From NCBI GenBank assembly GCA_028867075.1, contig JAGWGZ010000006.1, positions 1-41,314 on the forward strand: a stretch of 41,314 bases of DNA. Reading direction: 5' to 3'. Position numbers and translations under genes: made by a program. Position 1 is the stretch's first letter; each line of letters starts with the position of its first letter. This DNA comes from Nanobdellota archaeon. GTDB lineage: Archaea > Nanobdellota > Nanobdellia > Pacearchaeales > GW2011-AR1. The notes below the pieces were generated by a model. The model was not told the origin of the DNA. It saw only the letters and a list, made by a program, of their open reading frames with translations, and made no database searches. This document shows, in pieces, positions 1,937-41,212 of this stretch.

Positions 1937-3979
1937 TTATAATACGATAACATTCGCCTGGCTTCCAATATAGATTGTCTGATTAGCATAAAGAGATCCC
2001 AAGTCAGATGCCTGCAAGGTTGCATTTACTGTAAAATTACCTGAAATATCAGTGCTTATTTTTGTTACACCATTATCGTTTAAATGAGCAACCCATATAT
2101 TTGTTCCATTTATTGCTATACTAAAATATCTTCCTCCCCCCACATCACTATAATTTGTCATTGTTCCATCTGGAGCAACCTTAGTTATACTATTATCTCC
2201 CTTATTAACTGTCCACATGTTGGTGCCATCAAATGCAATTGCAATAGGATTTACTCCTGTTCCGGTATAGTTTGTCATTGTTCCTGAAGGAGTTATTTTT
2301 GTAACTGAGTTACTCCCATAGTTTGCGGTCCACATGTTGGTGCCATCAAATGCGATTGAATAAGGAGTATCCCCTGTTCCCGTTGCATATAATAAAATCC
2401 CTCCACTAGATGAAACCTTAGTCACACTATCACTAAGAGAATTAGTAATCCACATGTTGGTGCCATCAAATGCGATTGCAAGACCACCTAACCCTGAAGA
2501 CATAGCATAAGATGTTGATGTTCCATCTGGGGCTACTTTTACCACAGCACTTTGATGAGATACGAGAGCAGATGTCGCAATCCACATGTTGGTTCCGTCA
2601 AATGCAATTCCTCGTGGGGTGGTAGTCAGAGAAGAATAATTTGTCATAGTCCCGGTTGGAGTAATTTTCGTGACGCTATTGCTATTTGCATTTGCTGTCC
2701 ACATGTTAGTGCCGTCAAAAGCGATTGAATAAGGAGTAGCTCCCGTTCCAGAATAAGTAGTCATTGTTCCGGTTGGAGTTATTTTTGTAACTGAGTTACT
2801 GGCAAGATTAGTAACCCATATATTTGTTCCATCAGATGCAATTGCCTGCGGACTATCTCCTGTTCCAAAATAATTAGTCATGAATGGTCCTGTATATGAA
2901 AGGTTTCCTGTTCCCATATTGCAGTCTACCTTAAGGATGCAGTTTGCAGGCATAGCAACATCCCAATTTTGATTCAGTCCAGAACAAAAACAATAAGTAT
3001 ACCCATCAAATGCAATTGCCTGGGGATACCTTCCAGTCCCAGTATAATTGGTCATTGTTCCACTAGGGGCTATTTTAGTTACACTACCAGAGCTATTAAT
3101 CCCCCCATCATAATTTGCGGTCCACATGTTGGTTCCGTCAAATGCGATTGCATCAGGATAGAAACCTGTTCCGGTGTATGTTATCATTGTTCCTGCGGGG
3201 GTTATTTTTGTAACTGAGTTACCCATATAATTTGCGGTCCACATGTTGGTGCCGTCAAATGCAATTGCATAGGGTTGATTTCCTGTCCCAGTATAATTGG
3301 TCATTGTTCCTGCGGGGGTTATTTTTGTAACACTATTGCCCAATTTATTTGCAGTCCACATGTTGGTGCCGTCAAATGCAATTGCAACCGGTTGAAAACC
3401 AGTTTCTGTGTATGTTGTCATTGTCCCATCTGGAGCTATTTTTGTAACACTATTATCACCCTGATTCGCTGTCCACATGTTGGTGCCGTCAAATGCAATT
3501 GCAACAGGGGTTGCTCCTGTTCCGGTGTAATTTGTCATCACACCTCCTGAAGAAATTTTCGTGACGCTATTGCTATTTGCATTTGCTGTCCACATGTTGG
3601 TGCCGTCAAATGCAATTGCACTAGGACCTACTCCTGTTCCCGTATAAGTTGTCGTTATTCCTGCGGGGGTTATTTTTGTAACACTGTGACCAATATCATT
3701 TACAATCCACATGTTTGTTCCATCAGAAGCTATACCATAGGGAGTATTTGCTCCAGAAATGGTATAATTAGTAATTACACCTGCCGGGGTTATTTTTGAA
3801 ACGCCAGAATCTATACTATTCGCAGTCCACATATTTGCGGTTCCTGGAGCATTTCCATTTAGAGTCAAAGGTATAAGCGCTTTTGTAAACGGCAGAAAGA
3901 ATAAAAAAGACATAAATAAAATCAGCAAAAAGATTCCTGCGCCAGAATAAACCCCCTTATGTTTTCTTAAGCCGAGCAT
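1937..3979 (-). CDS. Secreted beta-propeller-like repeat protein (streptogramin-lyase-like repeats)
   Basis: The protein has 680 residues, with a membrane-inserting signal at about 14-36. The rest is about 15 repeats of roughly 39 residues with consensus AFDGTNMWTANxxxNSVTKI, then TPxGTMTNYTGTGxxPxAI. Each repeat has the four-strand look of a propeller blade, similar to Vgb/SMP-30/NHL-type repeats. Fifteen units would fit two seven-bladed propellers plus a terminal unit. One unit near residues 330-385 is divergent, longer and carries four cysteines. The catalytic residues of streptogramin lyase cannot be confirmed, so a binding or scaffold role at the surface is more likely than enzyme activity. 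The start overlaps the end of the long fibre gene by 13 bp, so the two are probably co-transcribed. Confidence 0.7.
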   Translation of the reverse strand: MLGLRKHKGVYSGAGIFLLILFMSFLFFLPFTKALIPLTLNGNAPGTANMWTANSIDSGVSKITPAGVITNYTISGANTPYGIASDGTNMWIVNDIGHSVTKITPAGITTTYTGTGVGPSAIAFDGTNMWTANANSNSVTKISSGGVMTNYTGTGATPVAIAFDGTNMWTANQGDNSVTKIAPDGTMTTYTETGFQPVAIAFDGTNMWTANKLGNSVTKITPAGTMTNYTGTGNQPYAIAFDGTNMWTANYMGNSVTKITPAGTMITYTGTGFYPDAIAFDGTNMWTANYDGGINSSGSVTKIAPSGTMTNYTGTGRYPQAIAFDGYTYCFCSGLNQNWDVAMPANCILKVDCNMGTGNLSYTGPFMTNYFGTGDSPQAIASDGTNIWVTNLASNSVTKITPTGTMTTYSGTGATPYSIAFDGTNMWTANANSNSVTKITPTGTMTNYSSLTTTPRGIAFDGTNMWIATSALVSHQSAVVKVAPDGTSTSYAMSSGLGGLAIAFDGTNMWITNSLSDSVTKVSSSGGILLYATGTGDTPYSIAFDGTNMWTANYGSNSVTKITPSGTMTNYTGTGVNPIAIAFDGTNMWTVNKGDNSITKVAPDGTMTNYSDVGGGRYFSIAINGTNIWVAHLNDNGVTKISTDISGNFTVNATLQASDLGSLYANQTIYIGSQANVIVL
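2220..3900. repeat. In-gene tandem repeat, about 117-bp period
   Basis: A nearly invariant block (for example CCACATGTTGGTGCCGTCAA on the plus strand) recurs about every 117-120 bp through the propeller gene. Most blocks are identical or differ at one or two bases, while the segments between them vary. This is coding repetition, not a CRISPR array: the period matches 39 codons and the reading frame is kept. Confidence 0.85.
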
Positions 3980-6900
3980 ATCTTTCCCCCTGAATTAAAG
4001 ATTATGCAGGTGTTTGCCGCATTTCCGACTGTAAGATTGCTTGTTATATTTGCATCCCCTATAACATTCAATTTATTCTTCGGGCTCGTTGTTCCTATTC
4101 CGACATAACCATTGGAATTTATAACCATCCTATAAGCACTATTCTTGTTATCATAAAATGCTAAATCGCCCGGAGCTCCGGAACTGCCAAGGGGCTCGGA
4201 TGAGATTGTATAATTTGTGTCTGGTGTCCCAAACTTTATTCCTGCCGCATTTGTCCCATTGGTTATTGTTGTTATGTAAGCCAAAACATTTGAGCTTCCA
4301 TTAATTTGCAGGTTATTTAATGGGTTCGTTGTTCCTATTCCTACATTGCCTGTGTTTTGTATTGCTAGAACGCCTGTTGTCGGCTGAGTTGCTCCGGTAT
4401 TAAAGATTAATGTTCCTCCACTAACATCAGAAGTAGTTTCCCACCATCTATTTCCCGTACCTGTTTGTAAATTTAAAGCGGCAGGGGTTCCAGCAGAAGT
4501 ATCGTATAATGATAAAACGGCGGATGGCGAAGATGTCCCTATTCCAATATTGCTTCCACTCTGATAAATATTAGAATTTCCAAGACCTGTTCCGGAACTC
4601 CACAGAGGAACATAGTTAGTTGTCCCGCTGCCAGTAGGAACATTTCCTCCATTCAAACTAAGGGTGTTTCCCACCTGAAGATAGCCTGTGCTAGAATAAT
4701 AAAGTCTCATTGTTCCGCCTGCATCAAGCAGCTGTATTCCTCCTCTAAAATTCCCTCCGGAGTATCCGTAAGACAACCATGTTGCGCTCGTGCTTGTTCC
4801 CATCTCAGTTCTGTAACCTCCTGCGACAGGAGTGTTTCCCCAAGATGTTGAAGGCCCGTAAGAATTTACTGTGCTGCTTGCATTAATCGTTCCTGAAACA
4901 CTTAATGTATTCGAAGGCGAGGTTGTTCCTATTCCTATTCCTGTATCTGTAACAGACATGATTGGATTTCCGAAATTTGAAAGGCTTCCCAAACCTGTTG
5001 CACTTGATTCATAGAAATTCAAAGCCCCGTTTGATGCCTGAATTAAAGATGGAGAAACAGAAGGGTGCGTGTTCACATAATCCGTCCCATTTCCTTTGGT
5101 GAACCACCCTATATAACCATAACCAGCGCTATGCCCCATGTCAAACCAAGAATTCGTATCAAGAGAAAAGTCAGGATTTTGGGGGCTTCCTGCTGCATTG
5201 CCGGCAATCTGAAGAAGTGATGATGGAGAAGTTGTTCCTATTCCGACGTTGCCTGCATTTGTTATAATCATTCTTAATGTTGAGGGAGAGCCGGTATAAA
5301 ATGTCTGGTTTCCGTTGTTTGTTATGAGATTCAGGCTTCCGTTTAGGTTATTATTTACATACAAATCGTCCGCAGTTGAGCTTCCATATCCTACATATCC
5401 CTTTCTTCCTGTTGAGTCATAGAAAGACAGATAGTTGTTTCCTGTCCCCCTTGCTCCTGCCTGCAACTTCAGGATTTCTCCTCCCGAGCCAGTGATATTT
5501 GCTGTCCCAACAACATTTAGCGTATTTTGGGGAGAGGAAGTTCCTATTCCGACGTTGCCCGCGGCAGTTATGTGCAGCCTGTCCTGCATTGACGTGTCGG
5601 AAGCCTGCCTTGTGCTGAATATCAAATCACCGCCTGTTCCGAGAGGAGATGATTGGAAGCTTGTATATTTCGCGGTTATGGAAGCGAGCATGAAAGACAA
5701 ATTTGTCCCATATCCTGCTGAAGGCGAGAAAGTGTTGAAGTCTATTTCTCCCAATGCCCCATAGCTGCTCGTGTCCCTCGTTGTTATCAGAATATCCGCT
5801 TTCTGCCCTATTGTCCTGTTAAGGTCGTTATTTCCCGAATCAATATTGACATATCCATTGGGCATTGTGTTTGCAGTGGTATAAATGCCTACACTACCAC
5901 CAGAAGAGCCGTTAATAATAAACTGTGCGGGGTAGTTTGCAGTATTCCCGGAGAATATAAAATCGTTTCCGAGAGTCCTGAATACCATGTCCCCCAAGGT
6001 TGCAGACGTGCTCCACTGATTGCTGCCCATTGCCATCCCTATTGCGCCAAGAGCAGTTGGGGTCTGGTTGTAAAAGCTTATTCCGGGCGAGATTGGTCCC
6101 GAAGTGCTTCCCTGAATTGCTATTGCTGACCCGGATTGAGATGGCTTCACCGTGAGTATTTCCTGAGGCGAAGTTGTCCCAATGCCGACACTTCCTCCTG
6201 CAGCCTGAAGAGATATATTGTAAGCGATCGCGGTGTCAGTTCTTCCTCCCTGTATCCAAGAATTGCCGGTCCCATCAACACCCGCATATAATCCATAGGC
6301 ATTGCTTGCAGCCGCTGTAACTCCAAAACCTATGCCTGCTGTGGAGCCTAAGGTCATTAAGGTCGAAGCTGCCGGTACTTGTGTTTGGAATCTCACCTGC
6401 GGGCTTGTTGTTCCTATTCCAACATAGCCTGTTCCATTTTGGAATGTTATATAATTGCTATTCCCCATATCAAAATAAATCGGTCTGTATCCAGAAGCAC
6501 TTCGGTCATATGATACAATATATGCACCTGTAGGTCCAATTGCATTAGTAGACGGATTTATTTCAAGCCCCCCTGCACCCCCATTACTAACAACAAATTT
6601 GTTTTGCGGTGTTGTTGTTCCCACACCCATATTCCCCATGACATACAGATTACTAGGAATATTTATTCCCGCTGTTGAATAGTTTTTAAGATAATCCACT
6701 GTTATGTTTGTTGCAGAGAGGACAACATTTCCGAGGTAAGATGTTCCTGTGACATTCAAATCCCCCACGACATTCAATGTATTCTTCGGGGTTACAGTGT
6801 TTATTCCCACATAATTACTAGTTCCGCTGCCGACAGTTAAGACAGCTCCGTTTGGGTAACCTCCCGAATTTGCTATATAAAACTGCCCGCCGGTTCCTGT

Positions 6901-9333
6901 TGCATTAGCCCCTATATTCCATTGCCTAACTGAAGTTGTCAAATCAGGATTAAAAGTCATAAGGGTTGACGCATTATTGTTTTGGGCTACAACAGCAAAT
7001 CGGGTGTTATTTCCTGAAGCAAATCCGCTAATCGCTCCATTTGCGGCATAAATTGTTCCGGTTATGTTTGCATCACCCACGACATTCAATGTATTCTTGG
7101 GTGAAGTTGTTCCTATTCCTACATTTCCTGAATTATCAATATAAACTTTGGATGTTCCGATTCCTGAACCGCCTGAAAAAAAGTTATATGTTCCATTTTG
7201 GACTATCAATGCGGCTGTATTAGCACTGCCGGGGGTCACCCATGCAGTACCATTATAATAGACATTGCTTCCTAGATAAACACTCGGCTTGCCACCGCTA
7301 CCAGTAGCATAAGAACCGACAAATCCGTTTGGTTTCCCTGTACCCATACTCCCGATGGCAATAACGCTTGGGTCTGCTTCTCCAAATGATGCAGCAATCC
7401 CGCCTGTTGTCCCGTTTACATCAAGGTCATAGTTCGGTGATGTTGTTCCTATTCCGACGTTGCCTGTCGAAGAGTTAATATAAAACAAACTTGTTGTGGA
7501 TTGATTATAAAACCCGAAATGGTTGTTATCAGCCTGCATTATGGAATTAAATGTAACAATATTTCCCTGCCCGGGGTTGCTTGGGGCAATAGCAATCTGA
7601 ATTCCCCCACTGTATCCTGTGATTTGAGAAGGTATAACTGAAGGGTGAGTTGCAATATAATTTGTTCCATTTGCTTTCGCAAACCAGTTTATAGAACCAT
7701 ATCCTGAGCTATGCGCAAGGGTAAACCAATCACTCGTATCCAAAGAAACAACGGGTTGGGGGGCTCCTGCCAGACCTCCAGATATTTGCAATAATGAACT
7801 CGGCGTTGATGTTCCTATTCCAACATTCCAACTAAGATTAGAGGGATAAACATAACTTCCGGACTGATTCCAAACTCCGTTGCTTGAGCCTGCCCCTAAA
7901 TTACCATAGATACTTCCAGTAACATTCAAATCTCCGACGACATTCAAGGTATTCTGTGGGGTTACAGTGTTTATTCCCACATTTCCTGACGGAAGAATTG
8001 TTAATTTTTGAGTAGTATAAAAAGAACTCCCTTGCCCGATGAAGAATTCGCTGTTTGTGCTTCCAAGCCCCATAGCCCATTGTGCACCTGTTGAATTAGC
8101 AAACACTAACTGGGAGCGGGTTGTTGAATTGGGGCTCCGAATAAATACATTTGTTGCAGCACCCGAAGAATTAATATCAAGAGTTCCGACTGGTGAAGTT
8201 GTTCCTATTCCTACATTTCCTGTTGAAGTTATCCTCATCTTTTCAGAGAATAATCCTGCATTTATGTTCTCAAATACCAAGTCTGCACTCGTCGCTCCTG
8301 CATTATGGTTCGTGTTTATTGTCCCTATTCTTCCCTCTGTCACACTTGTTCCTGCTGCATCAGTAGTTGAAAATGCCAGCATGCTTCCTGTATTATTTGT
8401 GGAATTTGAATTTTGTATCTTCAATCCTGATAATATGTTAGCCTGGGTTGTTGTTGAATCACTAAAATTAATGTGAAGAGGATTTGCAGGACTTGCTGTT
8501 CCTATCCCTACGTTTCCTGATTTAACAATTAATCCGTAAGAACCTCCGGCAATATCAATTTCATTCCCGCTATTGTTATTATAAAATATTCCTCCCCAAT
8601 AAGTCCCAGATGCCGCTTCTCCAAGAATGCCGTGCGTTGAGGTCCCCCCTATCCCAGCTATTGCTACTGAATTTTGAAATTGTGAAGCAGGGGTCGTTCC
8701 CTGAATAACTGTCAAAGCATTTTTTGGCGAACTTGTTCCTATTCCGATATATCCGCTCGTGGAATTTATGAAAAACTGCGACTCATTTCCTCCGAGTGCT
8801 CCATTGCTGTTGAATTGTATTGCTCCGTTGTTTCCCCCTGCAGTAACGCTTGAACCGGAAATCCCTGTCAGATATTGCCCATTTCCAAACAAATATGCGG
8901 CAGTGAAGTTATAAGCGCTGATATTTATGTTTCCGTTTGAAAGAACTCCCCCCGAGGGGACATGCCCTGCATAGAATGCATACGGAACCTGGGCAAGCTT
9001 TGACGTGTCAATCAAAACTCCATCCCTATAATAGCAAAGCCAGTATTGCTGGCTGTAATCGCTAAGGATTACATTGTCGAGATAGTAAGAAATGATTCCC
9101 CTTGAGTCAGTTGTCAGCGTCGTGGAATTTGAATAAACAATGTTTGAGACGTTGCAATCAGAGCTTGAAGAGATGTTAAATACAAAGGCAAACGTCCCTG
9201 TCTCAATGCTTCCGTTTGTATAAGTGACCTGAATGTTCAGGTGAAGACTGCTGTAAGCAGAGACAGCATATATGCTTCCTGATAAAGCAGCTATAAAAAA
9301 TAAAACGCTCAAAAAAAATACACCCTTTTTCAT
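3967..9333 (-). CDS. Giant secreted fibre/adhesin protein with GIGTTSP repeats
   Basis: The protein has 1788 residues. It begins with a signal peptide (about 1-24), followed by a beta domain to about residue 125 that ends AQVPYAFYAG, matching the YAF(R/Y)A motif that closes N-terminal domains of bacterial tail-fibre-like proteins. The body carries about 18 copies of the motif GNVGIGTTSPxNxLxVxG, found in phage tail-fibre and long surface-fibre proteins, often trimeric. The C-terminus NTCIIFNSGGKICSA carries two cysteines that could crosslink chains. No intramolecular chaperone (endosialidase-type) domain is visible. It is followed by the propeller gene with a 13-bp overlap. The likely role is adhesion or host/partner contact; the ligand is unknown. 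A TATA-like TTTATAAA about 70 bp upstream (near 9400) may drive it. Confidence 0.75.
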   Translation of the reverse strand: MKKGVFFLSVLFFIAALSGSIYAVSAYSSLHLNIQVTYTNGSIETGTFAFVFNISSSSDCNVSNIVYSNSTTLTTDSRGIISYYLDNVILSDYSQQYWLCYYRDGVLIDTSKLAQVPYAFYAGHVPSGGVLSNGNINISAYNFTAAYLFGNGQYLTGISGSSVTAGGNNGAIQFNSNGALGGNESQFFINSTSGYIGIGTSSPKNALTVIQGTTPASQFQNSVAIAGIGGTSTHGILGEAASGTYWGGIFYNNNSGNEIDIAGGSYGLIVKSGNVGIGTASPANPLHINFSDSTTTQANILSGLKIQNSNSTNNTGSMLAFSTTDAAGTSVTEGRIGTINTNHNAGATSADLVFENINAGLFSEKMRITSTGNVGIGTTSPVGTLDINSSGAATNVFIRSPNSTTRSQLVFANSTGAQWAMGLGSTNSEFFIGQGSSFYTTQKLTILPSGNVGINTVTPQNTLNVVGDLNVTGSIYGNLGAGSSNGVWNQSGSYVYPSNLSWNVGIGTSTPSSLLQISGGLAGAPQPVVSLDTSDWFTLAHSSGYGSINWFAKANGTNYIATHPSVIPSQITGYSGGIQIAIAPSNPGQGNIVTFNSIMQADNNHFGFYNQSTTSLFYINSSTGNVGIGTTSPNYDLDVNGTTGGIAASFGEADPSVIAIGSMGTGKPNGFVGSYATGSGGKPSVYLGSNVYYNGTAWVTPGSANTAALIVQNGTYNFFSGGSGIGTSKVYIDNSGNVGIGTTSPKNTLNVVGDANITGTIYAANGAISGFASGNNTRFAVVAQNNNASTLMTFNPDLTTSVRQWNIGANATGTGGQFYIANSGGYPNGAVLTVGSGTSNYVGINTVTPKNTLNVVGDLNVTGTSYLGNVVLSATNITVDYLKNYSTAGINIPSNLYVMGNMGVGTTTPQNKFVVSNGGAGGLEINPSTNAIGPTGAYIVSYDRSASGYRPIYFDMGNSNYITFQNGTGYVGIGTTSPQVRFQTQVPAASTLMTLGSTAGIGFGVTAAASNAYGLYAGVDGTGNSWIQGGRTDTAIAYNISLQAAGGSVGIGTTSPQEILTVKPSQSGSAIAIQGSTSGPISPGISFYNQTPTALGAIGMAMGSNQWSTSATLGDMVFRTLGNDFIFSGNTANYPAQFIINGSSGGSVGIYTTANTMPNGYVNIDSGNNDLNRTIGQKADILITTRDTSSYGALGEIDFNTFSPSAGYGTNLSFMLASITAKYTSFQSSPLGTGGDLIFSTRQASDTSMQDRLHITAAGNVGIGTSSPQNTLNVVGTANITGSGGEILKLQAGARGTGNNYLSFYDSTGRKGYVGYGSSTADDLYVNNNLNGSLNLITNNGNQTFYTGSPSTLRMIITNAGNVGIGTTSPSSLLQIAGNAAGSPQNPDFSLDTNSWFDMGHSAGYGYIGWFTKGNGTDYVNTHPSVSPSLIQASNGALNFYESSATGLGSLSNFGNPIMSVTDTGIGIGTTSPSNTLSVSGTINASSTVNSYGPSTSWGNTPVAGGYRTEMGTSTSATWLSYGYSGGNFRGGIQLLDAGGTMRLYYSSTGYLQVGNTLSLNGGNVPTGSGTTNYVPLWSSGTGLGNSNIYQSGSNIGIGTSSPSAVLSLYDTSAGTPAALNLQTGTGNRWWETTSDVSGGTLIFNTGATQPTTGVLAIQNTGNVGIGTTNPLNNLQINGSSNVLAYITTITNGTNAAGIKFGTPDTNYTISSEPLGSSGAPGDLAFYDNKNSAYRMVINSNGYVGIGTTSPKNKLNVIGDANITSNLTVGNAANTCIIFNSGGKICSA

Positions 9334-14796: not shown

Positions 14797-14818
14797 ATAG
14801 CCTTGCCAGGATTCGAAC
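14797..14818 (-). repeat. 3' echo of tRNA-Gln (22 nt)
   Basis: Positions 14797-14818 are identical to 14864-14885. On the minus strand this copies the T-loop, the 3' T-stem strand, the complete 3' acceptor strand and the discriminator of tRNA-Gln. It lies 67 bp from the original, downstream of the gene in transcription direction. The T-stem 5' strand is absent, so it cannot fold as tRNA. Confidence 0.85.
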
Positions 14819-14864
14819 TGAAAACCACCTGCGGGTTTTCTATCCTGCAACCATCGAATCCACA

Positions 14865-15009
14865 TAGCCTTGCCAGGATTCGAACCTGGGTCACAGACTC
14901 TCTCCACAGAACACAGAGATGCGGAACCATCCCGGAATCAATCCGGAGGTGCGGAACCGTTTGGGTTCTGGCCAGAGGCCTGTATACTTGACCGCTGTAC
15001 TACAAGGCT
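14865..15009 (-). tRNA. tRNA-Gln(CTG), intron at 37/38
   Basis: On the minus strand the acceptor AGCCTTG (15009-15003) pairs with CAAGGCT (14872-14866), with discriminator A. The D-stem is GTAC/GTAT, the anticodon stem CAGGC/GTCTG, the loop CTCTGG before the intron gives anticodon CTG, and the T-arm is CCAGG-TTCGAAT-CCTGG. The intron is 72 nt (14900-14971). The intron contains one full and one partial copy of the dispersed hairpin repeat. A TATA-like TTTTTATACC is centred near 15037, 27 bp before the 5' end. The spliced length is 73 nt. Confidence 0.92.
14900..14971 (-). other. tRNA-Gln intron carrying dispersed repeat copies
   Basis: The 72-nt intron holds CAGAACC-CAAAC-GGTTCCGCACCTCC (14945-14971 region) and a second partial copy, GGTTCCGCATCTCTG, at 14915-14928. 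Thus the intron body is built largely from the repeat found at several intergenic sites in this window. Confidence 0.75.
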
Positions 15010-15061
15010 ATGTAAACTTTAGAGATAAATGGTATAAAAAGGTTTCATCGAGAAAAATTTT

Positions 15062-16408
15062 TTAGATCCCAAACATATTTCTAAAGAAATTAATGATTTG
15101 CTGCAGAAAGTTTGGTGTGACACATTCTGAATTTGCGCATAAATTAGATGCGCATTCAAAATTGTTGTCGCATATACCGCTATTTATCTGCATCGTAAGA
15201 GTATTGTTAATATTGCAATAATTCGTTCCTATACGATAGCCATAAGGAAGACACTTAGCCTTATATAAACATCCTGAAGGACAGATGAGAGTATTATTTG
15301 CAATAAGGGGTGAAGTTATTGTTTGATTTCCAGAATAATTTGCAAGAGAATTTGCATTTGATGATGCAGGAACTGTCTGGTTTGTTAAATTCTCTGATGT
15401 ATTGCCCGAAGCAGAAACTGTATTTGACTGGTTCAATGGCAGATTATTATTTGAAGAAGAACTAATACAAGCGCCGTCGCTGCACCCATAAGGGCATGAA
15501 TAAGTTTGTATTGACCAGATATAGCTATTATTTGTACAATAATATTCAGCCAAGGTGACGTTATTTGAGCAGGAATCCCATCCGGAAAAGGTAGCGGTCT
15601 GAATAAGTCCTTTTACATAAATATTTCCTCCATTGGACTTACTACAGGAATAAGTTGGTGTTGTTGTATTTGTTGGATTATTGGAAGAGATAGATGAGTT
15701 TAATATTCCGACAATCTGTGCCCATGAGTTTACTGAGGCACCGGTCGGACCTCCGTAAGATACATTATAAACCGTTCCATTGAGAACTAAATAGGTGTGA
15801 CCAGATGAAGAAGGAGTTCCGGTTTTGTAAGTTAAACCGGTTAATACATTTTGATACATTACATAATCATTTGTATATGATGTTGAATCAACCCAAACAT
15901 TTGTAAGTTGTAAAAGTAGAGAAAGATTTGTAGAAAGGATATATCCATTCAGACTCGTATTAGAGTATAAAGAGTCCATAACACTTATGTTACCAACAGT
16001 ACTCCCGACAATCTGTGCCCATGAGTTTACTGAGGCACCGGTCGGACCTCCGTAAGATACATTATAAACCGTTCCATTGAGAACTAAATAGGTGTGACCA
16101 GATGAAGTTCCGAATCTTGTATATGTTGAACCAGTTATGGGGTTAGTATACATCACATAATCATTAGTATAAAGAGAGGGATCAATATAGACACCAGACA
16201 ATTGTAATAGGGTATTATTAACAAGAGTATAATAATTAAGAGAAGTATTTCCGTTAGTCGTCGGATTTGAGATCACATATCCGGTTGCCCTAGAATGATA
16301 GATAAAAAATGTTAGAAATACAAGAGCCAATAATACTATAAAAATGCCGATAATTATCAAAATCTTAGATTTAAATTCTGATTTATTACTCTCTCTTTTA
16401 ACAACCAT
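15062..16408 (-). CDS. Membrane-anchored extracellular protein with duplicated domain
   Basis: The 448-residue protein has one N-terminal membrane segment (about 15-38) and an extracellular remainder rich in Asn, Ser and Thr with many NxS/T sites. Two copies of a domain of about 99 residues (about 55-150 and 155-250) share VYIDPSLYTNDYVMY-like and SSGHTYLVLNGTVYNVSY motifs; part of the copy is identical at DNA level over 103 bp. A cysteine-rich C-terminal part follows, including a CDNNFECASNLCANSEC-type knot shared with other DPANN surface proteins. It ends in an amphipathic or hydrophobic tail (FLQQIINFFRNMFGI). Function unknown; a cell-surface role is inferred. Confidence 0.65.
   Translation of the reverse strand: MVVKRESNKSEFKSKILIIIGIFIVLLALVFLTFFIYHSRATGYVISNPTTNGNTSLNYYTLVNNTLLQLSGVYIDPSLYTNDYVMYTNPITGSTYTRFGTSSGHTYLVLNGTVYNVSYGGPTGASVNSWAQIVGSTVGNISVMDSLYSNTSLNGYILSTNLSLLLQLTNVWVDSTSYTNDYVMYQNVLTGLTYKTGTPSSSGHTYLVLNGTVYNVSYGGPTGASVNSWAQIVGILNSSISSNNPTNTTTPTYSCSKSNGGNIYVKGLIQTATFSGWDSCSNNVTLAEYYCTNNSYIWSIQTYSCPYGCSDGACISSSSNNNLPLNQSNTVSASGNTSENLTNQTVPASSNANSLANYSGNQTITSPLIANNTLICPSGCLYKAKCLPYGYRIGTNYCNINNTLTMQINSGICDNNFECASNLCANSECVTPNFLQQIINFFRNMFGI
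15708..15810. repeat. 103-bp exact direct repeat, copy 1
   Basis: Identical base for base to 16005-16107; the offset is 297 bp (99 codons), so the reading frame is preserved. It lies inside the secreted protein gene and encodes the SSGHTYLVLNGTVYNVSY part of each domain. Confidence 0.95.
16005..16107. repeat. 103-bp exact direct repeat, copy 2
   Basis: Second copy of the repeat at 15708-15810. Absence of even synonymous differences over 103 bp, while the flanking parts of the two domains have diverged, points to recent gene conversion or duplication. Confidence 0.95.
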
Positions 16409-23976: not shown

Positions 23977-24124
23977 AGCCTCAGCTGAGGATTGAACTCA
24001 GGACCTCGACATCTTTGGGATTTCCGGGAGGGAAAGTCAAGCGAACGGCTTTTTGCGATGCGTATGCGTAATCGCGTGTCGTCGCATACCAATGTCGCGC
24101 TCTTACCGACTGAGCTACTGAGGC
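23977..24124 (-). tRNA. tRNA-Thr(GGT), intron at 37/38
   Basis: On the minus strand the acceptor GCCTCAG (24124-24118) pairs with CTGAGGC (23984-23978); discriminator T (23977), as in other archaeal tRNA-Thr. The D-stem is GCTC/GAGC, the anticodon stem CGACA/TGTCG, the loop TTGGTA before the intron gives anticodon GGT, the variable loop is AGGTC, and the T-arm is CTGAG-TTCAATC-CTCAG. The intron is 74 nt (24013-24086). A TATA-like ATTTTTAAAA at about 24151-24160 is roughly 30 bp before the 5' end. The spliced length is 74 nt. Confidence 0.92.
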
Positions 24125-24178
24125 TTGATGAAAGTAGCGAGTTAATCTCCTTTTAAAAATTTAAGGGAAAGCTAAGCG

Positions 24179-24204
24179 AAGCAGAACCAAAGGTTCCGCA
24201 CCTC
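24179..24204 (+). repeat. Dispersed hairpin repeat, copy B
   Basis: A 26-bp block identical (in inverted orientation) to 40832-40857. The core GCAGAACC-AAA-GGTTCCGC can form an 8-bp stem with one G-T pair, followed by ACCTC. It lies upstream of tRNA-Thr, between the gene and its 5' echo. Confidence 0.85.
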
Positions 24205-24231
24205 TGATAAAATAAACCGCAGGTTGTCTCG

Positions 24232-27320: not shown

Positions 27321-28071
27321 AAAGCTTTGTGAGGAAATTGTTTCTGTCTCTCTTTGAATCATACCTTACCCCGATTATCCGCGCAGCGATTTCCTTGTAC
27401 GCACGTGCGGGCTTGCTTCCGGGATGCGTATGCACAACAGCATCCTTGAGATTTAAAGATTCCTTGACAGAAATATCTTCTGGAATCATTCCAAGAATAG
27501 GAACCTCAAGCATTTCTTTCACGGTTTCCGGCTTCATTTCAATCCTGTCTTTCCTGACTCTTGAAACAATAACGCCAAAGACGGGGACCTTCATCTGCTC
27601 TGCAAGCTTTATCGTCTTTAGTGCGTCTGTGATTGCTGTAATCTCCGGATTTGTAACAATTATAATTTCATCAGCCATTCCGATTACGGAAGTTGCCTCA
27701 TGTCCGAGCCCTGCAGAACTGTCAACGATGACATAATCTGAAATTTTCTTGAAGTCTTCTTTGAAATCTTTTATTTTCTCGGGTTTTATTTTTCTCAGCT
27801 CCTTTATTGAAAGTGATGACGGCATTATCTTCATCCCTGATTCGTGCTCATAGACAGCCTCATAAGGCTCCGCCTTTTTCAAAAGAACATGGTTGAGATT
27901 CACCGGAACTTCCGGGGAATTAAGATGAACTCCCACGTTGGGGGTTGAAAGATTCGCATCGATTACAAGAACATCTCCTCCGAGATAATTTATCGCAGCA
28001 CCAAGATTAATAGCGGTCGTTGTCTTTCCAACGCCACCCTTTCCCGAAGTTACAACAATTAATCTCTTCAT
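27295..28071 (-). CDS. MinD/ParA-type ATPase
   Basis: The 258-residue P-loop ATPase has the deviant Walker A motif KGGVGKTT at 11-18 (TSGKGGVGKTTTAINLG), the switch region DANLSTPNVGVHL at about 39-51, and DYVIVDSSAGLGHEA as Walker B. ATYPICAL features are few; it lacks an obvious C-terminal amphipathic membrane helix and ends LTKLFSRFGRKK, a basic tail. Archaeal MinD-like proteins position cell structures such as archaella or chemoreceptors; the specific cargo is unknown. It is preceded by the 31-bp tandem array with minicistrons (28097-28189). It is convergent with the interrupted gene. Confidence 0.88.
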   Translation of the reverse strand: MKRLIVVTSGKGGVGKTTTAINLGAAINYLGGDVLVIDANLSTPNVGVHLNSPEVPVNLNHVLLKKAEPYEAVYEHESGMKIMPSSLSIKELRKIKPEKIKDFKEDFKKISDYVIVDSSAGLGHEATSVIGMADEIIIVTNPEITAITDALKTIKLAEQMKVPVFGVIVSRVRKDRIEMKPETVKEMLEVPILGMIPEDISVKESLNLKDAVVHTHPGSKPARAYKEIAARIIGVRYDSKRDRNNFLTKLFSRFGRKK

Positions 28072-28096
28072 TTTATATCAATAAGGACAGAAGATT

Positions 28097-28189
28097 TTCA
28101 TTTTAAATTAACAGGAGGTGTGGAATCTTCATTTTAAATTAATGGAAAGTGGGAAATTTTCATTTTAAATTAATAGGAGGTGTGGAACC
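28097..28189 (-). repeat. 31-bp tandem repeat (3 units) forming minicistrons before minD-like gene
   Basis: Units start at 28097, 28128 and 28159, each beginning TTCATTTTAAATTAA on the plus strand; a diverged fourth occurrence (28067-28081) covers the minD-like start codon. On the minus strand each unit gives TTAATTTAAAATGAA. Reading from those ATGs gives MKISHFPLI-stop, MKIPHLLLI-stop and MKIFCPY-stop. The first two stops are followed by one nucleotide and the next ATG; the third stop is two codons before the real ATG. Units 1 and 3 carry GGAGGTGTGGAA, the left arm of the dispersed hairpin repeat. Confidence 0.85.
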
Positions 28190-28201
28190 TCGGTTCTACT
28201 T
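28176..28201 (-). repeat. Dispersed hairpin repeat, copy C
   Basis: Plus strand GGAGGTGTGGAACCTCGG followed by TTCTACTT; on the minus strand AAGTAGAACC-GA-GGTTCCACACCTCC. It forms an 8-bp stem and includes the TAG stop codon (28196-28198) of the 146-residue gene. Confidence 0.8.
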
Positions 28202-28636
28202 ACTAAGAAATTGTTTAGTTGTGCTTATAAATTTTTCCAGCATGCTTGCATAAGTTTTCAGCTGTTCAAGATTTATGTCCACATCTTCTCCGCGGTAAAT
28301 GATTTTCAGTGTCACATTTTTCCTGAACTCGCCGATTCTTTCCTTTCTGAGATCCTCAAGTTTCCTCAGCATCTCATAGAAATCAATCACTGCGAGAAAA
28401 TCCTTGTCGTTTCTGAAAAGTTTCTTCACTTCTTCTGTTTTTCCGAGCGGACTCGCGGAGATGGATGAAATTTTTTTCTTTGACTTCGCATGTTTCAGAA
28501 TCTCTTCAATGCTTGTCTCTATCATTCTCCTCCACCTCAAAAGCAAATTGATGATTACATCGCAGGTCTTTGTATACTTGAGACTGACATATAAAAGATG
28601 GTCTGCCCTAATTTTTTCCTGTATTATCTCTTCCAT
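28196..28636 (-). CDS. Helical protein of unknown function
   Basis: The 146-residue protein is mostly alpha-helical (MEEIIQEKIRADHLLYVSLK, TCDVIINLLLRWRRMIETSI, DFYEMLRKLEDLRKERIGEF) with a short strand pair around VTLKIIYRGEDVDINLEQL. I do not recognise a family, although the style is that of conserved archaeal proteins. Its stop codon lies within dispersed repeat copy C and an inverted partial copy lies upstream (28661-28674), so the gene is bracketed by the repeat. Confidence 0.65.
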   Translation of the reverse strand: MEEIIQEKIRADHLLYVSLKYTKTCDVIINLLLRWRRMIETSIEEILKHAKSKKKISSISASPLGKTEEVKKLFRNDKDFLAVIDFYEMLRKLEDLRKERIGEFRKNVTLKIIYRGEDVDINLEQLKTYASMLEKFISTTKQFLSK

Positions 28637-40575: not shown

Positions 40576-40855
40576 GTTTGATAGGATAAACTTGCGCTGA
40601 ACTCGATATTAAGAAAAAACCTCTAAAGAATAATTATGCGAATTTGGGTGGATTTTTGTCAGTTAATATATTTGTTATCAATAACGAGCGACGCGAACTA
40701 TTCTTTTTGGGTCGGATGGGTGGATAGGAAAGCTATCGCTAAAGAATATTTCTAAAAGAAAAGTAAAAATTAAAAATTAAATTAAAAAATAAAAAATTTA
40801 GAGAAAAATTACAACTCCTTCTTAATTATCGGAGGTGCGGAACCTTTGGTTCTGC
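40576..40855. other. Intergenic region with AT-rich tract and repeat copy D
   Basis: No gene is seen. It holds a strongly A/T-rich stretch (about 40755-40810), a short palindrome-like AGCTATCGCT patch near 40731, and the dispersed hairpin repeat at its right end (copy D). Confidence 0.5.
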
Positions 40856-40857: not shown

Positions 40858-41212
40858 AGAATCTCTCTCTTCTGCCGCCATCTCTTCCGCCGCCGAAGCT
40901 TCTCCTTTGTCCGCCAAATCCGCCGGACCTAGGTCCTCTGTTGAAGTCTCTTCGTGGCCTTGGAGCATCGGGGTCAAATGGTTTTGCTTCAGAAAGCTTC
41001 AATTCTCTACCCTTGAAGTCTTTTCCGTTGAGCTCAGAAAGAGCTCTCTGGGCAACCTCATCGTTTGGAATTGTCACAAAACCAAAACCTTTTGATCTTC
41101 CGTTGAATTTATCCTTAATGAGCACAACTTCTTCAGGTTCATAACCGGAGAAAAGTTCTTTCAAGTCAGACTCTTCAACACTGAAAGGCAAATTACCTAC
41201 GTATATCTTCAT
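40856..41212 (-). CDS. RRM-domain RNA-binding protein with Gly/Arg-rich tail
   Basis: The 118-residue protein has an RNA recognition motif: RNP2 as KIYVGNLPFSV (2-12) and RNP1 as RSKGFGFVTI (39-48), followed by an RGG-like tail (about 85-118: RRDFNRGPRSGGFGGQRRSF). This arrangement resembles bacterial and plant glycine-rich RNA-binding proteins. RRM proteins are uncommon in archaea, so horizontal acquisition is possible. A strong Shine-Dalgarno AAGGAGG lies about 10 nt before the ATG, unlike the leaderless style of many neighbours. The stop codon is inside repeat copy D. Confidence 0.92.
   Translation of the reverse strand: MKIYVGNLPFSVEESDLKELFSGYEPEEVVLIKDKFNGRSKGFGFVTIPNDEVAQRALSELNGKDFKGRELKLSEAKPFDPDAPRPRRDFNRGPRSGGFGGQRRSFGGGRDGGRRERF

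Follow-up and report, generated by a model that had tools for sequence, protein, structure and literature searches.

Directly ahead of the gene for an archaeal cell-division ATPase, tandem 31-bp units place three short Met-Lys-Ile reading frames in front of the real start codon. The question raised by this locus is whether the array is a device for tuning MinD expression, through either serial reinitiation or multiple promoters as the original prediction proposed, or whether its minicistrons arose in another way. The host has a Pacearchaeota-type genome of 575 kb in 26 contigs (88.7% complete), and the species is covered by one genome assembly. The relatives used for comparison are Pacearchaeota/Nanoarchaeota assemblies, and the window is the whole stretch of 41,314 nt of host DNA that was analysed.

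The array and its neighbouring genes

The gene that had been called minD-like encodes archaeal MinD. Its product, which begins MKRLIVVTSGKGGVGKT, scores 236.1 bits against TIGR01969, where the curated cut-off is 201.75. The 146-aa gene on its upstream side has no match in Pfam or NCBIfam, and almost all relatives examined have it as the immediate upstream neighbour of minD. Its last codons contain the predicted minD promoter, and its stop codon (TAG, 28198-28196) overlaps a hairpin element. Since the repeat starts within this hairpin, the feature is bounded at about 28199 to 28065 (Table 1).

The minus strand of the leader reads ...AGTAAGTAGAACCGAGGTTCCACACCTCCTATTAATTTAAAATGAAAATTTCCCACTTTCCATTAATTTAAAATGAAGATTCCACACCTCCTGTTAATTTAAAATGAAAATCTTCTGTCCTTATTGATATAAAATGAAGAGATTAATTG.... 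TRF describes the array as 2.9 copies of period 31 with 80% matches and a score of 133, compared with scores of 34-55 on 20 first-order Markov shuffles of the window. At an offset of 31 the leader matches itself at 29/36 positions, above all 500 local shuffles. The three tandem units are therefore real, and the frames MKISHFPLI, MKIPHLLLI and MKIFCPY are all present on the minus strand as predicted. ATG codons fall at 28163, 28132 and 28101 and, for minD, at 28071, in steps of 31, 31 and 30 nt; the exact 31-bp spacing that had been claimed is found among the minicistrons and is lost by 1 nt in the last step. That the real start codon lies within a diverged fourth unit was correctly foreseen.

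The junctions between frames also agree with the prediction: two of them read TAA-A-ATG, with the stop 1 nt from the next ATG, and the third reads TGA-TATAAA-ATG, with the last stop 6 nt before minD. This geometry is the first point in favour of serial reinitiation, in which ribosomes would translate the three minicistrons in turn and the chain would tune the MinD dose. However, the unit length of 31 equals 1 mod 3, a condition with a chance of about 1 in 3, and a tandem copy of ...ATTTAAAATG... with such a length would yield the TAA-A-ATG junctions automatically; they would need no selection.

Table 1. Positions in the window of the minD locus, its repeat units and reading frames, and the element copies.
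Feature	Position	Strand	Basis or remark
Element copy, 5' end of tRNA-Gln(CTG) intron (72 nt)	14944-14971	minus	gene ~14864-15010
Element copy next to tRNA-Tyr(GTA), which has an intron, and to a partial copy of a tRNA 5' end	24181-24206	plus	
minD, archaeal cell-division ATPase MinD, 258 aa	27295-28071	minus	TIGR01969
Diverged unit 4 (ATCTTCTGTCCTTATTGATATAAAATGAAGA), holds the minD start codon	28065-28095	minus	sequence, offset test
Minicistron MKIFCPY, to stop	28078-28101	minus	ATG frame
31-bp unit 3, near-identical to unit 1	28096-28126	minus	TRF, offset test
Minicistron MKIPHLLLI, to stop	28103-28132	minus	ATG frame
31-bp unit 2	28127-28157	minus	TRF, offset test
Minicistron MKISHFPLI, to stop	28134-28163	minus	ATG frame
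31-bp unit 1 (element tail + AATTTAAAATGAAA)	28158-28188	minus	TRF, offset test
Element copy GTAGAACC-GA-GGTTCCACACCTCCT, provides the TAG of the upstream gene	28175-28199	minus	E 4.4e-6 genome-wide, training copy
Conserved 146-aa gene directly upstream of minD	28196-28636	minus	no Pfam or NCBIfam match
Predicted minD promoter AAAATTTATAAG (BRE/TATA), in Lys-Phe-Ile-Ser codons of the upstream gene	28224-28235	minus	PWM 11.2
Element copy immediately 3' of the stop of an RNA-binding-like gene (glycine/arginine-rich tail)	40830-40855	minus	

Repeats of other kinds occur elsewhere in the window. On the minus strand at 1937-9333 there are two long ORFs of 680 and 1788 aa, the former with 117-bp tandem repeats, and an exact 103-bp direct repeat (15708-15810 and 16005-16107) lies within a 448-aa ORF.

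Transcription and translation of the minD leader

The upstream regions of 71 host genes on contigs C9 and C10 display a sharp TATA peak with the consensus AAGATTTATAAA. Relative to the ATG, the first TATA base falls between -29 and -27, which makes most of these genes near-leaderless. On the host genome's own BRE/TATA matrix, the predicted minD promoter is by far the best site around the gene and ranks in the top 4e-5 of positions. The first base of its TATA is 28231, which places the predicted transcription start at about 28202. All 45 compared loci (host included) that have the (F/L)I(S/T/R) motif contain TTTATA. The codons TTT-ATA-AGY are used in 38 of the 39 Phe-Ile-Ser loci, against the 12% predicted by codon usage in the rest of the gene; each set of identical genes entered this comparison only once, and related loci are not fully independent. 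Together, these data are strong evidence for a promoter maintained inside the coding sequence of the upstream gene. A TATA box in Phe-Ile-Ser codons (window 28224-28235; loci L010-L033 and L041-L068) would be a promoter under double constraint throughout an entire archaeal family.

The distance from TATA to the minD ATG is 160 nt here and 31-121 nt (median 55) in relatives, and the predicted leader is 131 nt long, compared with 2-92 nt. Likewise, the spacer between the upstream gene and minD measures 124 nt, against 1-85 nt, mostly 10-50, in close relatives. Because the conserved promoter sits upstream of the array, the array very probably lies within the minD mRNA leader, and its minicistrons could therefore be translated. 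A promoter of this kind, family-wide and located in the codons of the upstream gene, makes transcription of the array directly testable. Two findings had been named as evidence against a regulatory array: an untranscribed array, which is not expected given the conserved upstream TATA, and a lack of conservation in relatives, which is what we found.

Serial reinitiation gains from the predicted position of the array inside the minD transcript, downstream of a conserved promoter, and from the scarcity of SD-like motifs, which were seen in only 10 of the 72 genes surveyed. Against it, the 31-bp array is present in none of the other loci examined, and the predicted fold of the leader is no better than that of shuffles (z -0.26). 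The leaders of relatives contain no chain of MKI frames, and the upstream frames they do have are unrelated to one another. An ATG of any kind occurs in 8 of the 48 leaders compared, the host included, which gives short upstream frames some precedent in the minD operon; conservation of the minicistrons as uORFs is absent among the same 48 leaders. We regard serial reinitiation as improbable. The idea of a purpose-built chain also fails to account for the first unit, which is a copy of a dispersed element described below. Most likely, the array has no dedicated function and amounts to a longer leader with three decoy starts and a modest effect on MinD dose. Judging from their absence in relatives and from parsimony, the minicistrons seem functionally passive.

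The TATA-like core predicted for each unit raises a second possibility, namely that every AATTTAAA core is a TATA box and that the array is a tandem minD promoter. AT-rich cores (TAATTTAAAATG) do exist and score 4.6, a value reached by 0.2% of positions. Moreover, the unit-3 hexamer lies at -36 of the minD ATG, within a minor cluster at -38 to -36 (12 hexamers among 71 genes); transcription driven by it could begin immediately beyond the stop of the last minicistron. As promoters, however, the cores score less than the gene median of 6.6 and much less than the 11.2 of the conserved site at 28235. They directly precede ATGs instead of lying at -29 as host TATA boxes do, and TTTAAAATG or similar letters in that place are common in relatives without the array. 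A tandem promoter appears a little less probable still than serial reinitiation.

Direct repeats ahead of ParA-superfamily genes are common on plasmids, and by this parallel the units could be operator or partition repeats, to which either a regulator or a ParB-like protein working with the ParA/MinD-family ATPase would bind. The protein encoded here is nevertheless archaeal MinD of the chromosomal type, its gene belongs to a conserved pair, the other loci compared lack these repeats, and unrelated genes and tRNA introns contain the same repeat tail. Operator or partition repeats are the least credible of the explanations considered.

A dispersed hairpin element in protein genes, tRNA introns and spacers

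Searching the host genome with the minD leader identified two further places, both on another contig. They share an identical 28-mer, GAACCAAGGTTCCGCACCTCCTATTGAT, with which the leader agrees at 25/28 positions (0.00 expected by chance in the window). One lies within the DNA polymerase B gene (polB; Pfam DNA_pol_B) and the other within a gene for a protein with an RsmF-type PUA-like domain (hereafter PUA). Further copies came from comparing two contigs against themselves, from a degenerate scan and a more permissive pattern search, and from inspection of tRNA genes. Ten copies, including the one in the minD leader, align cleanly as GCAGAACC-loop-GGTTCCGCACCTCC and were used to train a covariance model. 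The model finds 13 copies in the host genome, three of them outside the training set (on C22, C26 and C20; E 1.7e-4 to 0.007). The conserved core is about 25-30 nt long, with optional extra modules. Its stem has 7 pairs, with 91% of cells paired and one pair altered on both sides; covariation is sparse (65/500 shuffles) and too little for independent proof. In the minD copy, a C-to-T change is accompanied by a compensating G-to-A (C-G to T-A), which, as a single case, fits a hairpin that has been kept.

With the covariance model, no copy was detected in the same-genus genome G001. Among 200 genomes of the order, five others score, weakly, up to 0.02. Two of these (G115 and G149) each have one plausible longer-loop relative as a single copy, G061 has one match to the element core, G194 has a weak match, and the match in G205 is a different repeated element. 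Given the absence from G001 and these few weak or dissimilar matches, the family appears to be essentially lineage-specific, with older single relatives possible. G205, a genome of the same family, contains its own repeat around GCAGAACTAAAGTTCCGCAAGTCCT in five copies (L222 and L224-L227), perhaps a parallel dispersed element. A viral origin was also considered and rejected: a 2-nt-loop pattern matched one viral contig, which is GC-rich and has different flanks, and a 1-8-nt-loop pattern gave no match in the viral contigs searched.

Within two proteins, the element falls in stretches of residues that orthologues do not have. PolB carries approximately 18-20 extra residues (ENQNQGSAPPIDKKRSDSSSFSID) following the FTSYWPSI motif, and PUA carries about 45-50 between YFAK and IRLSIEG. 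Another copy is contained in a zinc-ribbon ORF on C22. The four coding-frame copies (polB, two in PUA, zinc-ribbon) are all entered by the reading frame in one phase, as CAG-AAC or AAG-AAC. Between genes, copies lie upstream of genes on C20 and C26, in addition to the one that adjoins the 3' end of the RNA-binding-like gene, which ends at window position 40859. Another short repeat, GCTGGAAATTGTAGAAACCCGCAGGAGGTGTCAC, lies immediately against the start codons of five apparent genes, with an SD-like GGAGG before the ATG, and against the end of one tRNA gene (L208 on C20, L209 on C26, L211 on C16, L212 on C24, L215 on C22 and L210 on C18); its copies on C20 and C26 are connected to the hairpin element.

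In three tRNA genes, namely tRNA-Arg(TCT) (two copies in a 96-nt intron), tRNA-Gln(CTG) and tRNA-Val(TAC), the element occupies the 5' end of the intron, and the first copy begins within the first 3 nt in each of them. ARAGORN recognises all three tRNAs after in-silico removal of the introns at 37/38, and pairing between the 3' end of the intron and the anticodon loop is possible in each (TTCT/AGAA, CTCT/AGAG and TTTA/TAAA). Three of the 11 element loci are in introns, and the seven measured introns total 462 bp; the corresponding P of ~1e-7 is descriptive only, as some loci were found by inspecting tRNA genes. These three tRNAs would suit a model in which the element is a spliced archaeal bulge-helix-bulge (BHB) intron everywhere, the copies in protein genes included. 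Yet the four coding-frame copies leave the frame open and entered in the same phase, the minD leader copy has no exon to join, and the hallmarks of an archaeal BHB tRNA intron (37/38 position, 3' pairing, mature tRNA) are seen in the tRNA copies only. Splicing at every site is very unlikely.

The window has other notable features in its tRNA genes. The tRNA-Tyr(GTA) gene (~23980-24128) has a 72-nt intron and was missed by ARAGORN and Rfam on the raw window, in which one intron-bearing tRNA alone reached the Rfam threshold. The 3' end of tRNA-Gln(CTG) is partly duplicated just downstream (14797-14885), with a AACCACCTGCGGGTTTTC module between the copies, and a similar arrangement is found in G149 (L220).

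Origin of the minicistrons and comparison with known repeats

Tandem duplication next to the element is not restricted to minD. In polB and PUA, the element tail and neighbouring sequence repeat with a 36-bp period (25/36 and 28/36 matches; 0/500 shuffles equal these), which in PUA gives the 12-residue repeats GSAPPIDVKVSK, SSASRVGVKASE and SSAPPIGIRLSI. The periods suit their sites: 36, a multiple of 3, in coding sequence and 31 in the minD leader. The last PUA repeat runs into the conserved IRLSIE, and the last minD unit likewise runs into the real start codon. MinD orthologues mostly start with M(K/S)KIIVITSGKGG, preceded by TTTAAA or a similar stretch, and the 31-bp unit has these same letters. 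We consider it probable that the array arose in the minD 5' leader by a tandem amplification specific to this lineage, and that the minicistrons are old copies of the start codon.

The dispersed element (GCAGAACC-loop-GGTTCCGCACCTCC plus TATTGAT) would have been present first, at the end of the upstream gene. A 31-bp segment uniting the element tail with the minD start region (..TTAATTTAAAATGAAA..) would then have been duplicated in tandem, the captured host sequence being TTTAAAATGAAA, and decay of the start-codon copies would have left three minicistrons that begin with Met-Lys-Ile. The conserved TATA box within the upstream gene would direct transcription from near 28202 through the hairpin, the minicistrons and minD. 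In the mRNA, the longer leader with three decoy start codons may modestly lower or redistribute MinD translation, an effect that unit 3 may partly offset if its AT-rich core works as a weak additional promoter. The sequences themselves establish the array, the dispersed family, the in-frame insertions in other genes, the array's absence from relatives and the conserved TATA; the order of events, the start of transcription, translation of the minicistrons and the size of any effect are inferred.

In four relatives (L011, L014, L015 and L017) a related-looking short hairpin stands at the same stop codon, for example GTAGAACCCATTTCTACACTTTAAAATG in L015. Part of the hairpin may thus be ancestral and native to the minD locus, and the element may have come to minD or left from it. 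The CACCTCCTATT part, which is common to distant loci of the host genome, was not seen in these four. A bolder scheme is that of a mobile element associated with tRNA introns, in which the 5' part of an intron was copied into protein genes, 3' ends and leaders and repeatedly seeded tandem duplications that captured host sequence. We hold this scheme to be doubtful. If it were true, capture of the minD start codon would have created new leader peptides in a reduced DPANN genome. Under tandem amplification in the leader, the favoured reading, the locus is a concrete case of apparent upstream minicistrons that probably arose as by-products of tandem duplication. More generally, a small dispersed repeat can remodel the leader of a core cell-division gene, two proteins and three tRNA introns in a genome of this size.

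Neither the combination of sites seen here nor its association with start-codon-capturing tails turned up in the limited literature searched. As for short upstream reading frames in mRNA leaders, the likeness is that a predicted leader contains three ATG frames before the main gene; unlike regulatory upstream frames, those of minD are unconserved and probably derive from tandem duplication of the start region. Rickettsia palindromic elements (RPE) insert in frame in protein genes (PMC2229807), and repeats of this class have also been found in RNA genes (PMC2229807, PMC3767692). RPE and their Wolbachia counterparts resemble the present element as lineage-bound short hairpin repeats that lie between genes, in frame in proteins, and in RNA genes. 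The host genome has 13 dispersed copies of its hairpin, and the insertions in polB and PUA are in frame and absent from orthologues. RPE are approximately 100-150 bp long and belong to rickettsial hosts, whereas the core here is about 25-30 nt in an archaeal host, which excludes membership of the Rickettsia family itself. With only 13 copies, clustered in tRNA introns, the likeness is one of kind, and no sequence relation is claimed.

Among archaea, Methanocaldococcus jannaschii is reported to carry palindromic elements with coding potential (Suyama 2005, cited in PMC2229807). As repeats with open frames fused into protein genes they are alike in kind, a comparison made by description only, and the parts of the review that describe them mention neither tRNA introns nor minicistron arrays. 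In Thermoproteales, according to the summary in PMC4090602, a similar intron sequence occurs in several different tRNA genes and has been related to tRNA intron transposition (Fujishima 2010). Here, by contrast, only the 5' part of the intron is common to the tRNA genes, and the same part is also present in protein genes and leaders.
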